Below are positions 40,015-46,740 of a stretch of 64,000 nt of DNA, piece after piece. Made by a program: the position numbers and the translations under genes. The notes below the pieces were generated by a model that was given only the letters and a program-made list of their open reading frames with translations, was not told the origin of the DNA and ran no database searches. The stretch is from Thiorhodococcus drewsii AZ1 (GTDB lineage Bacteria; Pseudomonadota; Gammaproteobacteria; Chromatiales; Chromatiaceae): the NCBI RefSeq assembly GCF_000224065.1, contig NZ_AFWT01000010.1, positions 1-64,000 on the forward strand, written 5' to 3'. Every line of letters begins with the position of its first letter. Within the stretch, counting starts at the first letter, position 1.

Positions 40015-41048
40015 CCTGATTATTAAAATGCCTCAGCCATTTTCAGGAGGTGGTGGGCATTGGCGGTGTACGAACGGCTGCCCACCCCAGACGAGGGAGC
40101 ATGGCTGCCAGGTCAAATCGGCGATTGAAGCGATAGCAAAACTCGGCCAAAAAGTGTGGCAGATGCTTGCCGCTGACCTGATGATAGGACCCATGCAGGC
40201 TGTTTTTGACGTTACCGAGGACGGTGTTAAGCCACTGAAATTCGGGCAAGGCCATGCTGCGATAGCCTCCGCCGGTGACAACGGGCTGGTGCTCGAACCC
40301 GGCGCTGGCGACGCCACGAAAACACGCCAGCCCATCGCTGAGCACGATGGCATTGGGATCGAAATGGCGCTTGGCGAAGCGCTCGACTTCCCCCTTGCGG
40401 AAGCCGGCCACCTTACCCAGGCACAGCCCGATCGGGTGGCCTTCTTCGTTGCAGGACAAAGCGGCGATAAACGGAATATTGTTCGGTGAGCCGCGCCCAG
40501 GCTTGGCGCCGTGACGCTCCCCGCCCCAGTAGGCATCGTCGACCTCGATAACGCCCTTGAGTCGGGTTTGGTCGTCACGCTCTTTCATCACCTGCAACAG
40601 CTTGTGCTTGACCCGCCACGCGGTGAGATAGGAGGCACCCAGATGACGTTTGAGCTCCAGTGCAGAGATGCCGTTTTTCTGCTGCGTCAACAAGAACATG
40701 CCAGGAACCAAGTCGTGAGCGGCAGCTTGGTGGCCTCGAAGATCGTCCCAGCTGTCACGGAGGTTTGGTGATGGCAATGGCGGCACTGCAACAGGGCTCG
40801 CGTGCGCAGTCGCACCGGTACGCCCCCGTGACCACAGCTCGGGCAGACGAACCCCTGCGGCCAGCGCCATTGCTCCAGGGCCTCAACGTACAGGGCTTCA
40901 CGGCCGTAGTGCGTCATAAATTCCTGCAAGCTCAAGCCCTTCTGAAATTGGATCGGGTTTTGTGCCATCAGCGTTTCTCCAGGAACTTGCGATGGTCTCA
41001 GTATGCGCCGACTCAGCACTCGCAGGCTGAGATTCGTAAATAATCAGG
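40015..41048 (-). mobile_element. IS1595-family insertion sequence, copy B (decayed), between pilY1 and pilE
   Basis: A 1,034-bp relative of copy A, with the same outer bases: CCTGATTATTAA at 40015-40026 and AATCAGG ending at 41048. Flanking bases TCTATGTG (40007-40014) and TCTATGTA (41049-41056) are an 8-bp target duplication with one later mismatch. Relative to copy A it has two single-base deletions and scattered substitutions. The mismatched duplication and the deletions suggest an older insertion. Confidence 0.95.
40043..40968 (-). pseudogene. Frameshifted IS1595-family transposase
   Basis: Same gene as in copy A, starting at the equivalent ATG (40968). The first part reads correctly through PLTTWFLA, then a missing C near 40698 (CAAGAACATGCC instead of CAAGAACATCGCC) breaks the frame. 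The remainder, with the DDE residues VIEVDDAYWGG, VLSDGLACF and LAEFCYRFN, continues in another frame to 40043. A second one-base deletion near 40055 alters the C-terminal end. The product is unlikely to be functional, but the element could still be moved by copy A's transposase. Confidence 0.93.
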
Positions 41049-42999: not shown

Positions 43000-43509
43000 T
43001 CAGGCGTTGTTTGGTTGCTTCATTGATTCTGTCGTCTCGATGCGGGCCTGATTCTCGGGTCCGCTGATCGCGAGGGCCTCGGGGTTCTTTCCCAGCGCCT
43101 GCCCCATGATGCGATGCGCGCGTTCGGCGATGAAGGCCGGCGTCAGGCGTCGATCGCGATAGATCAGTCCCTCCAATGCCTCGCGGTCCTGATAGAGAAT
43201 TTGTGATGGGGCGGGATTGAAATTGCTTTCCAGGCTGATTCGCGCGATGCGTCCCAGGTTCAGTCCTCGGCCGTCGTCGAGCAGGATCAGGTGGGGGGTG
43301 AGTCCGCGCGATGGGTCTGGGCGCGGAAAGGCCAGCACGTCGAGCAGGATATAGGGCTGCCCCAGCTGACGGATGTGCACATGGGTGGCGCTGATCTCGA
43401 GTTCGACCAGATGGATGGGTTGGCCGATGGCGGCTCGGAGTCGGCCGACCTGTCGATCGTAGTCGGCGCTGGGCCAGATGGGTGGGGGCGATGTGTCGGA
43501 TGGAGACAT
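43000..43509 (-). CDS. Hypothetical protein divergent from the FNR/DNR-like regulator
   Basis: A 169-residue soluble protein I do not recognise. It contains YDRQVGRLRAAIGQPIHLVE, a region of beta strands (ISATHVHIRQLGQPYILLDVL, split by turns) and a C-terminal helix-rich part with RAHRIMGQALGKNPEAL. No signal peptide or metal motif is evident. ATG at 43509 (MSPSDTSPPP) is used with GGAG about 12 bases upstream; the frame is open far beyond, overlapping the regulator. It is transcribed away from the regulator across a 132-base gap, so could be under its control. Confidence 0.6.
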   Translation of the reverse strand: MSPSDTSPPPIWPSADYDRQVGRLRAAIGQPIHLVELEISATHVHIRQLGQPYILLDVLAFPRPDPSRGLTPHLILLDDGRGLNLGRIARISLESNFNPAPSQILYQDREALEGLIYRDRRLTPAFIAERAHRIMGQALGKNPEALAISGPENQARIETTESMKQPNNA

Positions 43510-43641
43510 GAGGCTCGGGCTCCTCAGTTGCCTGGATTCGGGCGATCCGCCGCCATGGGAATGCGGCCTTGCGCTAGCATGGTACTCGATCGGCGCGTCC
43601 GGATTGGGCCGGCGCGCGTCGGAACGAGGTGCGCCATTGCC

Positions 43642-44361
43642 ATGATCGAAGATTTGCGCCGGGCCCCGCTGCTGTCGAGGCTCGAAACCGAGCAACTGGA
43701 ACGGGTCAGCCGTCACGCCTTGCGGGTGGCGCTCGATGCGGAACAACTGCTCTTCAGTCAGGGCGACGCCGCCAACCGTTTTTATCTCCTCCTCTCTGGG
43801 CAGATGCAACTCTTTCGTCTCTCGCCCGAGGGCGCGGAGAAGGTGATCGAGATCGTGAGTCCTGGCCAGACCTTTGCCGAGGCCCTGATGTTCCTCAGCG
43901 CGCCGCGCTATCCGGTGTGTGCCTCCGCGTTGGTCGCCTCGGAATTGGTGGCGATCGATGCTGTGGATTTCGCGGCCATGCTGCGCGAATCGGTCGACAC
44001 CTGCTTCGTGCTGCTGGGCGCGCTCAGTCAGCGTCTGCGGGGTCTGATCGGTGAGATCGACGACCTCACGCTGCACACGGCGACCAGCCGGGTGGCGCGT
44101 TATCTGGCCGCCAAGATTGCGCCTGGCGAGCAGACGCTGGAACTCGATGTCCGCAAGGGCGTTCTGGCGTCGCGGCTTTCGGTTCAGCCCGAGACCTTTT
44201 CGCGCGTCGTCAAATCGCTGACCGCTCAGGGCGTTATCCGCATGCAGGGCAGTCAGGTGACTGTTCTGGATCTGGGGGCGTTACGGCGGATCGCCGAGCT
44301 GGTCGACATCCTGGAGCCCGGTCCGGTCTCGATCGGCACTCTGGGGTCGCTCCGCCCCTGA
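43642..44361 (+). CDS. CRP/FNR-family transcriptional regulator (DNR-like)
   Basis: A 239-residue regulator with an N-terminal cyclic-nucleotide-like sensor fold (FSQGDAANRFYLLLSGQMQ) and a C-terminal winged helix. The recognition helix reads LSVQPETFSRVVKSL; the E..SR pattern is that of FNR and DNR, which read TTGAT/TTGAC half-sites. The N-terminal Cys cluster of FNR is absent, so an Fe-S oxygen sensor is unlikely; DNR-type haem/NO sensing fits better. A TTGAC-N4-GTCAA box begins two bases after the stop codon, ahead of ygbA. ATG at 43642 is the best start; its ribosome-binding site (GAGG) is a little far. Confidence 0.88.
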   Translation: MIEDLRRAPLLSRLETEQLERVSRHALRVALDAEQLLFSQGDAANRFYLLLSGQMQLFRLSPEGAEKVIEIVSPGQTFAEALMFLSAPRYPVCASALVASELVAIDAVDFAAMLRESVDTCFVLLGALSQRLRGLIGEIDDLTLHTATSRVARYLAAKIAPGEQTLELDVRKGVLASRLSVQPETFSRVVKSLTAQGVIRMQGSQVTVLDLGALRRIAELVDILEPGPVSIGTLGSLRP

Positions 44362-44362
44362 T

Positions 44363-44376
44363 TTGACCTCGGTCAA
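44363..44376. promoter_or_regulatory. FNR/DNR-type operator in front of ygbA
   Basis: TTGACCTCGGTCAA: perfect half-sites TTGAC and GTCAA with a 4-base spacer, itself CC/GG-symmetric at its edges. This is the pattern bound by DNR and related regulators. It is centred 75 bases before the ygbA ATG and directly follows the regulator gene. Confidence 0.75.
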
Positions 44377-44444
44377 GGCGTCAGGTGCTCTGGTGCCTTG
44401 TGATGACGTGTATTCATATCCGGAAATCCCCGCAGGGGGCATGA

Positions 44445-44795
44445 ATGGCGCGGAATGCTGGATCGACGGGGCCGCGTATCCGGCGCGAGCAGCGGACTAT
44501 CGCCGTCATGATGCGCATCTATTGTTGCGACCATCATGGTGGGCGGGATGCGCTCTGCGCGTCGTGCTCGGAGCTGCACGAGTATGCTCGGCGTCGTCTG
44601 GAGATCTGTCCCTTTCAGGACGCCAAGCCGGCCTGCAATCGTTGCGAGGTGCACTGTTATAGCGCTGCCAGGCGGGATCGGGTCAAGGCGGTGATGGGCT
44701 ACGCGGGGCCGCGTATGCTCTTGCGTCATCCCTGGCTGAGTCTCTGGCATCTGATCGACGCGCGTCGTCCGGTGCCGAGACTCGATCGTCGCTGA
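44445..44795 (+). CDS. ygbA: YgbA-family protein (nitrous oxide-stimulated promoter family)
   Basis: A 116-residue cytoplasmic protein of the YgbA_NO family. E. coli ygbA belongs to the NsrR nitric oxide regulon and helps growth recovery from nitrosative stress; the activity is unknown. The family cysteines and histidines are all here: IYCCDHHGG, LCASCSEL, RRLEICPF, KPACNRCEVHCY, then VMGYAGPRMLLRHP. These look like metal or Fe-S ligands. A G-rich ribosome-binding site (AGGGGG) precedes the ATG at 44445. It is 83 bases downstream of the regulator with an operator between, forming a probable NO-responsive pair. Confidence 0.9.
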   Translation: MARNAGSTGPRIRREQRTIAVMMRIYCCDHHGGRDALCASCSELHEYARRRLEICPFQDAKPACNRCEVHCYSAARRDRVKAVMGYAGPRMLLRHPWLSLWHLIDARRPVPRLDRR

Positions 44796-44805
44796 TCGCG
44801 TGGCT

Positions 44806-46740
44806 TCAGCCTGTTGGCGGAGGCGTTCGGCGTGCCGGGAAGAAACGGTTCTCGAAGACCTCGGCGCAGACGGGACGTCCGAGATGGAATCCTTGGCCAA
44901 GCTCGCAGCCCTGCTGCCGCAGGAGATCAAGCTGTTCGGTGTTCTCGATGCCTTCCGCCACCACTGGATGACCCAGATGCCTGGCCATGGACAGGATGGT
45001 GCTGGCGATCACCTCGGTCGTGGGATTCTGGGTCAGGTCGCGTACGAACTCGCGATCCAGCTTGATACCCGAGATTGGGAAATTCTTGATCGACTTGAGC
45101 GAGGAATAGCCGGTGCCGAAGTCGTCGATCCAGATCTCGAATCCGGCGGCGCGCAGGGCCTTGAGATTGGCCAGCGCCTGTGACTCGTTGCGGGCGATAG
45201 CGGTTTCGGTGATCTCGATGTGCAGGCGTTCGGGCGGTACGCCTTCCAGGTCCAGGATGTGGCGGATGCGCGCGCTCAGATCGGTGCGGGACAGCTCGAT
45301 TCCCGAGACGTTGACTGACAGCGGAATGTGGGGGTAGCCGTTCAGATTCCATTCGCGGATCTGGCGGCAGGCTCGGTGCAGGACCCATTCGCCGATCTCG
45401 ACGATCTGCCCGGTGCTTTCTGCGATCGGGATGAAGCTCGCGGGTCCGAGCGGCATGCCGTTGTCGAGCCGCAGGCGCAGTAAGACCTCGGCACCGATCA
45501 GCGCCATGTCCTTAAGCTGGAAGAGCGGCTGGAAATAGAGGGTGAAATGGTCCTTGCGCAGTGCCTCTTGGAGCAGTGATTCGGTACGCAGGTGCGCGGA
45601 GCCGGCTTCGTCCCAGGTTGGATCGTAGGTGACGTGTTGGTTGCGTCCGTTGCTCTTGGCGCGTTTGAGCGCCGAATCCGCGCTGCGTAGCAGCGCCTGG
45701 GCCGAGACGGAAGTGGAAATGTTGCGCGAGGAGGCGACACCGATGCTGACCGAGAGATAGAGCTTGGTCCCTTGCTGACTGAAGCCCTCGGCCAGATGGC
45801 TGTGCAGATGGGCGGCGATCTCGGCGAGTTGCTCGGGGTGGCGGATACGCGCGATCGCGAGCCCAAACTCGTCGGCACCGGTGCGGGCGAAGCAGAGATC
45901 GCATTCGGCGACCCCGATGGTGGTGTAGACGAATCGCGACCTCAGGGCCGTGTCGAGACGTAGTGCCACATCCCGCAGCAATCGGTCTCCGGCCTCGCAG
46001 CCGAATTCGCGGTTTACGCGGTGAAAGCCGTCGACATCGAGCAGGATGGTGCCGGTTGCCGTTTCGGGTTTGGTATCGAGGATGGCTCTCTGCAGAAAGC
46101 GGATGAAATGGTTTCGGTGTGCCAGACCCGTCAGTTGGTCGACCGGGATGGCGATGTCGTCGAGCGATGTGTCGCAGATGCCGCGCGCCAACTCGGGATT
46201 GCCTGGGAGCAGACATGACTCGGTGCCGCCCTGCAGACGGTCGAGCGAGAGCGCAGCCAGGTCCACCAAAGCCCCCAGTGGTTGTCGGTAGAGTGCGGGA
46301 ATCTTGCGATCGACCCAGATCGCCATGCCGTAGATACGTTTGGGCGTGGCGATGGCGTGCAGCAGACAGGAGTGTTCCTCGCTCTCTTCCACCCAATGTC
46401 CGCCGTGCTTGAGCGCCTGGGCGAAGCGGCCGGAGTCGATCAGTTGGTCGATGAGGTTGCGCAGGTCGTCCTGGGCGCTGATCGGCGAGCTGAACACCAG
46501 TTCGAAGCAGGCGTCGGGCTGGCGGAGCAGTAAGGCGGTTTGCGTTGTGGGCAACAGGAGTCTGGAGCAACTGTTCAGTGCACTGAACAGTTCGGTGAAG
46601 GTGCGGCAGGACGGGAAGCGTCCGATGGCCTCGCGCAGGATATCGAAGGCCAGCGGGTAGACGTTGGTCGGCCTGCTTTGCGAATGTTCGCCGGGCGTTT
46701 CGGCGGGCGACAGCAGCCTGGGATGCAAGGCGAGATTCAT
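44806..46740 (-). CDS. GGDEF-EAL protein, probable cyclic-di-GMP phosphodiesterase
   Basis: A 644-residue protein. The N-terminal 180 residues look like a GAF-type sensor. The GGDEF domain has GADEF near residue 288 instead of GGDEF, so cyclase activity is doubtful. The EAL domain looks complete: EVLLR for EAL near 418, SVNVSG, IEITET, WIDDFGTGYSSL, GIKLDREF and AEGIEN. Net effect: cyclic-di-GMP breakdown, possibly GTP-regulated. It is last of three genes with the HDOD protein and a small partner; the ATG comes directly after the HDOD stop. Confidence 0.9.
   Translation of the reverse strand: MNLALHPRLLSPAETPGEHSQSRPTNVYPLAFDILREAIGRFPSCRTFTELFSALNSCSRLLLPTTQTALLLRQPDACFELVFSSPISAQDDLRNLIDQLIDSGRFAQALKHGGHWVEESEEHSCLLHAIATPKRIYGMAIWVDRKIPALYRQPLGALVDLAALSLDRLQGGTESCLLPGNPELARGICDTSLDDIAIPVDQLTGLAHRNHFIRFLQRAILDTKPETATGTILLDVDGFHRVNREFGCEAGDRLLRDVALRLDTALRSRFVYTTIGVAECDLCFARTGADEFGLAIARIRHPEQLAEIAAHLHSHLAEGFSQQGTKLYLSVSIGVASSRNISTSVSAQALLRSADSALKRAKSNGRNQHVTYDPTWDEAGSAHLRTESLLQEALRKDHFTLYFQPLFQLKDMALIGAEVLLRLRLDNGMPLGPASFIPIAESTGQIVEIGEWVLHRACRQIREWNLNGYPHIPLSVNVSGIELSRTDLSARIRHILDLEGVPPERLHIEITETAIARNESQALANLKALRAAGFEIWIDDFGTGYSSLKSIKNFPISGIKLDREFVRDLTQNPTTEVIASTILSMARHLGHPVVAEGIENTEQLDLLRQQGCELGQGFHLGRPVCAEVFENRFFPARRTPPPTG

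Follow-up and report, generated by a model that had tools for sequence, protein, structure and literature searches.

The dnr–ygbA locus

The window, which is the whole stretch of 64,000 nucleotides analysed here, contains a gene for a CRP/FNR-family regulator that is followed on the same strand by a palindromic box and a member of the ygbA family. The features considered are the following.

43642..44361, plus strand: dnr, coding for a DNR-clade CRP/FNR-family regulator of 239 aa (Pfam PF00027/PF13545, match to PDB 3dkw, reverse search, tree and recognition helix)
44363..44376, plus strand: predicted DNR/FNR-type operator, TTGACCTCGGTCAA, followed by GG (pattern scan, conservation at dnr loci, the same 14 bases in front of hcp in this genome)
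44399..44404, plus strand: predicted -10 hexamer TGTGAT, proposed from a position common to hcp and other ygbA promoters
44445..44795, plus strand: ygbA (YgbA_NO, PF11756), 116 aa, Cys/His-rich, function unknown (Pfam, alignment)
43000..43509, minus strand: divergent gene with no Pfam or NCBIfam match, of uncertain membership, which at dnr loci is mostly found together with ygbA

The first-pass annotation had delimited its feature as 44363–44795, an interval that covers the box and ygbA and leaves out the regulator gene. In a Pfam search, the 239-aa product of 43642–44361 contains the cNMP_binding and HTH_Crp_2 domains. Its recognition helix (SVQPETFSRVV) is of the E-T-x-S-R type and has PETFSR in common with the DNR of Pseudomonas aeruginosa (SIQPETFSRIM). 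Only two cysteines are present, C93 and C121, and none is N-terminal, in contrast to the FNR of the same genome. The original description of a CRP/FNR protein with a PETFSR helix and without N-terminal Fe-S cysteines is thus borne out, and its assignment to the DNR type agrees with two further searches. The top PDB match was P. aeruginosa DNR (3dkw) at 1.9e-40, ahead of a runner-up at 1.2e-23, and in a reverse search of the genome with a fragment of P. aeruginosa DNR, dnr came out on top (1.4e-40, 41% identity), with the next protein at 6.4e-11. In a tree from which L041 (internal stop codon) and lower-scoring regulator matches had been left out, P. aeruginosa DNR falls inside the group of the regulator and FNR lies apart (support values are not displayed). 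These sequence comparisons support a DNR-type regulator. The residue His187 is implicated in the heme binding of P. aeruginosa DNR; at the corresponding position, 28 of the 30 Chromatiaceae DNR-type proteins that were aligned, including the regulator of the window, have Arg, one has Leu and one a gap. Because of this substitution, heme binding and NO sensing by the window regulator are not secured, and NO sensing is the weakest step of the interpretation given below. All 30 of these proteins have the cysteine at position 121 (window positions 44002–44004), where P. aeruginosa DNR has Ala.

The product of ygbA scores 138.4 bits against PF11756, for which the curated cut-off is 25, and seven cysteines (C27, C38, C41, C55, C64, C67 and C71) and two histidines (H31 and H70) are invariant in five aligned proteins, so the gene is, as first described, of the YgbA family with its full Cys/His set. 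An AlphaFold model built with 5 sequences had a mean pLDDT of 65, too poor for a fold search. The box begins one base past the dnr stop codon, and the ygbA start lies 68 bases beyond the box. It is the sole exact TTGACN4GTCAA of the window; at up to one mismatch, 2 matches were found where 1.1 are expected, so the window by itself gives the box no significance, which comes from the comparison across loci. Elsewhere in the window, two overlapping frames on the minus strand (40043–41019) encode the zinc-ribbon and DDE-domain halves of an IS1595-type transposase, which is possibly frameshifted.

Conservation of the box at ygbA and dnr loci

Of 210 Chromatiaceae genomes, 76 gave a match to PF11756, as did 6 of 369 genomes sampled evenly across the class (2 of these Chromatiaceae and 4 from outside the family). 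From 87 PF11756 places, 81 were scanned over up to 400 bases upstream (fewer in L122, L128, L139 and L142), and six partial rows, in G174, G170 (twice), G132, G176 and G144:C388, were left out. The box that had been associated with ygbA proved conserved: it occurs at up to one mismatch in 45 of the 81 upstream regions and exactly in 30. Shuffled versions of these regions gave a mean of 2.6 (maximum 8) at up to one mismatch and of 0.1 (maximum 2) for exact matches, and seven altered patterns, with a different spacing or with substituted or reversed arms, had no exact match in the same regions and between 0 and 5 matches at one mismatch. A chance origin of the box is excluded by these controls together with its conservation at the loci. 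The 45 boxed loci belong to 11 genera, in which related species are not independent, many coming from g16, g76 and g8. The other 36 of the 81 loci have no box at one mismatch; in some of them ygbA follows closely behind cytochrome c, HPP, SPOR or response-regulator genes, and no single alternative motif was evident by eye in the boxless promoters. At 74 of the 81 ygbA loci, no dnr was found in the fetched DNA (1.5–2.5 kb to either side unless the contig ends sooner), and since boxes are present at such loci, the occurrence of a box does not depend on a dnr close by.

The ygbA promoters of g16 and g76 (L150–L162, L164–L166 and L168) carry a box subtype that is mostly TTGACAANNRTCAA, with no GG and with CATAAT or GATAAT near base 22, and this subtype may answer to another CRP/FNR regulator. 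Among the 81 fetched loci, NnrS is encoded in 12, an HPP membrane protein in 10 and a TehA/SLAC1 protein in 3, counts that have no chance control. In L103, L104 and L105 (genus g27), ygbA adjoins a TehA/SLAC1-family gene; tehA has been discussed as an NsrR target of Escherichia coli.

The regulator–box–ygbA order, whose conservation in Chromatiales the first-pass annotation had suggested as a check, was found, with both genes on the same strand, in six Chromatiaceae species: the window genome, Imhoffiella purpurea (L060, G001), Thiorhodococcus minor (L065), T. mannitoliphagus (L067), a Thiorhodococcus MAG (L070, G023) and G019. The box is present in all six, four times exactly and twice with one mismatch. 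It also lies, with up to one mismatch, within 400 bases downstream of dnr at 4 of 20 dnr loci without ygbA (L068, L074, L076 and L082), and therefore it is not strictly tied to ygbA. Nine of these 20 loci have a dnr 79–85% identical to that of the window (L061–L064, L066, L068, L069, L071 and L072); a site was found only in L068, where it has one mismatch, stands precisely at the expected place and may be a relic. In the 11 loci with a dnr 39–72% identical (L073–L083), three sites were found, exact in L074 and L082 and with one mismatch in L076. In L074 (5986–8581), from a Candidatus Thiosymbion ectosymbiont, dnr is 68% identical, and the box lies 14 bases past its stop codon and is followed by GG. 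The gene after this box encodes a cytochrome cd1 protein (Cytochrom_D1, 500 bits), that is, a nirS-type nitrite reductase, and nirS is described as a classical DNR target in PMC1274295. The slot behind the DNR-type regulator can thus hold different NO-related genes, each preceded by a box, which slightly raises the probability of a DNR site and slightly lowers that of an FNR site.

The divergent gene at 43000–43509 had been proposed as a possible member of the module. Its homologue occurs at 5 of 6 dnr loci with ygbA versus 1 of 20 without it (L068), and this co-occurrence speaks for membership, whereas the shared intergenic region offers no box to support it, as no match was found in 43510–43641 even at 3 mismatches. 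This rules out a box serving the divergent gene and, equally, an FNR-to-dnr cascade as in Pseudomonas. In G024 (L020, 8140–11444), a homologue of this gene clusters with ygbA, nnrS and the gene of an HPP membrane protein, and the surroundings showed no dnr.

Promoter architecture and the regulator proposed to act at the box

The hcp promoter of the window genome contains a 14-mer identical to the ygbA box and in the same orientation, and the hcp genes of G019 and G032 have the identical 14-mer as well. An exact box was found upstream of all 15 hcp loci detected, in 14 of 34 Chromatiaceae genomes. The dnr gene is the direct neighbour of hcp in G018, in G028 and, in two places, in G033; in G029 an HPP gene intervenes. 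DNR control of hcp was predicted in 2005 for Thermochromatium tepidum and Acidithiobacillus ferrooxidans, according to PMC1274295. The window genome has 24 sites of the pattern TTGAYN4RTCAA and 2 of the reversed one; a Pfam search covered 20 proteins encoded beside the 24 sites, several of which have no assigned gene. The nnrS gene of this genome sits 3' of a TTGATTCGCATCAA site, with a good -10 absent at the class II position.

The boxes of hcp and ygbA share further traits. GG directly after the box is seen in 13 of 15 hcp promoters and 18 of 45 boxed ygbA promoters and in 0 of 20 fnr promoters, and position 5 of the box is C in 12 of 15 hcp promoters, 12 of the 18 GG-type ygbA promoters and 2 of 20 fnr promoters; the fnr control consists of 20 fetched Chromatiaceae promoters that are mutually orthologous and is therefore narrow. 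Counted from the end of the box, the first base of a -10-like NANNNT is base 23 in 13 of 15 hcp promoters, which places the box centre at -41.5, the position of a class II activator. Among the 18 GG-type ygbA promoters, of which 17 had enough sequence for the test, 13 have it at base 22 or 23. In the fnr promoters, NANNNT is found at base 10 (60%) and not at the class II place. The other 27 ygbA boxes have it at base 22 (47%, genus-weighted); these boxes, which lack the GG, could answer to another regulator. The window hexamer TGTGAT agrees with TATAAT at 4 of 6 positions, lacks the A at position 2 and fails NANNNT, as one of five such GG-type promoters. If 44399–44404 served as the -10, the box centre would lie at about -41.5, as predicted for class II activation. 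No sigma-70 -35/-10 pair was found in 44300–44830.

On this evidence, we think it likely that a DNR-type activator binds the box and brings about class II activation of ygbA and hcp under NO, in the place of NsrR. A dimer of the activator encoded next door would bind TTGACCTCGGTCAA at the ygbA promoter, centred near -41.5, and would recruit RNA polymerase when nitric oxide or a related nitrosative stress is present; ygbA would be coexpressed with hcp through the identical box. In the Chromatiaceae, DNR would thereby take the role that the NsrR repressor plays for hcp and ygbA in enterobacteria. Activation of ygbA by DNR appears well supported as a prediction from conserved sequence, and we infer that DNR rather than FNR acts at the box, that it acts as an activator and that NO is the signal.

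The alternative that fares best, a site at which FNR and not DNR turns on ygbA at low oxygen, seems unlikely. A canonical FNR with the expected Cys is encoded in the window genome (G000:C115, 289.8 bits), FNR and DNR boxes overlap, and TTGAT..ATCAA makes up 13 of the 24 exact boxes of the genome, including the sites beside nrdD and fnr. The class II position by itself does not separate the two regulators. However, C at position 5 and the GG are common at hcp and ygbA and rare or absent at fnr boxes (within the narrow control), all 14 bases of the box are common to hcp, and it is dnr, not fnr, that adjoins the box here and several hcp genes. Dual control, with one box serving FNR and DNR as an oxygen-plus-NO gate, strikes us as a little less probable still: Anr and Dnr sites overlap in P. 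aeruginosa, as stated in PMC12403760, but the ygbA promoter has a single box and nothing speaks directly for such a gate.

It is very improbable that the box is a site of dnr or of the converging GGDEF-EAL gene, or marks the end of transcription, with ygbA as a bystander. Such a reading would fit a box that starts one base past the dnr stop codon and that also follows dnr at a few loci without ygbA; against it, no terminator-like structure was found at the box, which discards a terminator, the box is missing in L062, L063 and L064, where dnr and the GGDEF-EAL gene occur without ygbA, ygbA loci with no dnr in the fetched DNA are also boxed, and the box of L074 has a downstream gene of its own.

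The remaining alternative is control by NsrR as in E. coli. PMC5320621 and PMC2884951 report ygbA and hcp as NsrR targets in E. coli and Salmonella. Among 34 Chromatiaceae, one genome, G004, which has no ygbA, encodes a clearly NsrR-like protein (3.9e-41, with E<1e-35 as the threshold); this call rests on an E-value gap, the next best of the family being 1.8e-12, and the curated cut-off was reached in 0 of 55 genomes. A search for YtfE at 1e-10 was negative in all 34. With no evident NsrR orthologue (best match 2.3e-8), at least 4 mismatches to the motif ATGYATN5ATRCAT upstream of ygbA (the best site has 4) and no YtfE, control by NsrR is nearly excluded for the window genome. The first-pass annotation had held that ygbA was rewired from NsrR to the neighbouring DNR. 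The lack of an evident NsrR orthologue and of a good NsrR motif here agrees with this, whereas a descent from NsrR control would be conjecture: at four ygbA loci outside the Chromatiaceae, a DNR/FNR box (searched at up to 2 mismatches) and an NsrR motif were both lacking, so these loci indicate no direction for any rewiring.

As a broader conjecture, and one that we hold to be rather doubtful, Chromatiaceae might have an NsrR-free NO-defence regulon with hcp, with ygbA as a core member and perhaps with HPP genes and nnrS, controlled by DNR proteins of a lineage that lacks the His187 equivalent and would sense NO otherwise, e.g. via the invariant Cys121.

Comparison with known NO-response systems

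The HcpR motif TTGACnnnnGTCAA is given for delta-proteobacteria and cyanobacteria in PMC1274295. HcpR resembles the present case in the same box consensus before hcp and in a regulator gene located beside hcp in some genomes. A probable difference is that the window regulator is, among solved structures, nearest to DNR.

With the enterobacterial NsrR regulon (hmp, hcp-hcr, ytfE and ygbA), the system has hcp and ygbA in common. The regulator, the motif and the sign differ, NsrR being a repressor and an activator being predicted here, and the window genome has no evident NsrR and no YtfE. PMC2884951 describes ygbA, an NO-induced, NsrR-regulated enterobacterial gene, as without known function. 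An independent regulator that ties ygbA to hcp in phototrophic (purple) sulfur bacteria, together with the frequency of ygbA in the Chromatiaceae (76/210, against 4 matches from other families in the class-wide sample of 369), argues that YgbA itself matters in nitrosative stress. The case would also be an example of the same target genes under unrelated NO regulators, and it offers a promoter that can be tested.

The DNR regulon of Pseudomonas and beta-proteobacteria is alike in its DNR-clade regulator, its FNR-like box and, as neighbours or targets, hcp and (in L074) the cd1 nitrite reductase. Because hcp and the cd1 nitrite reductase stand beside orthologous dnr genes elsewhere, the likeness extends to the neighbours and targets of DNR; in the window genome it consists of the shared box only. 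As a DNR target, ygbA appears new within the open-licence papers searched, of which PMC1274295 alone mentions both ygbA and DNR; in its text the gene occurs once, as an NsrR target. Unlike the known DNR regulon, the one proposed here would have ygbA among its targets, TTGAC arms followed by GG are common at hcp and ygbA, and His187 is not conserved.
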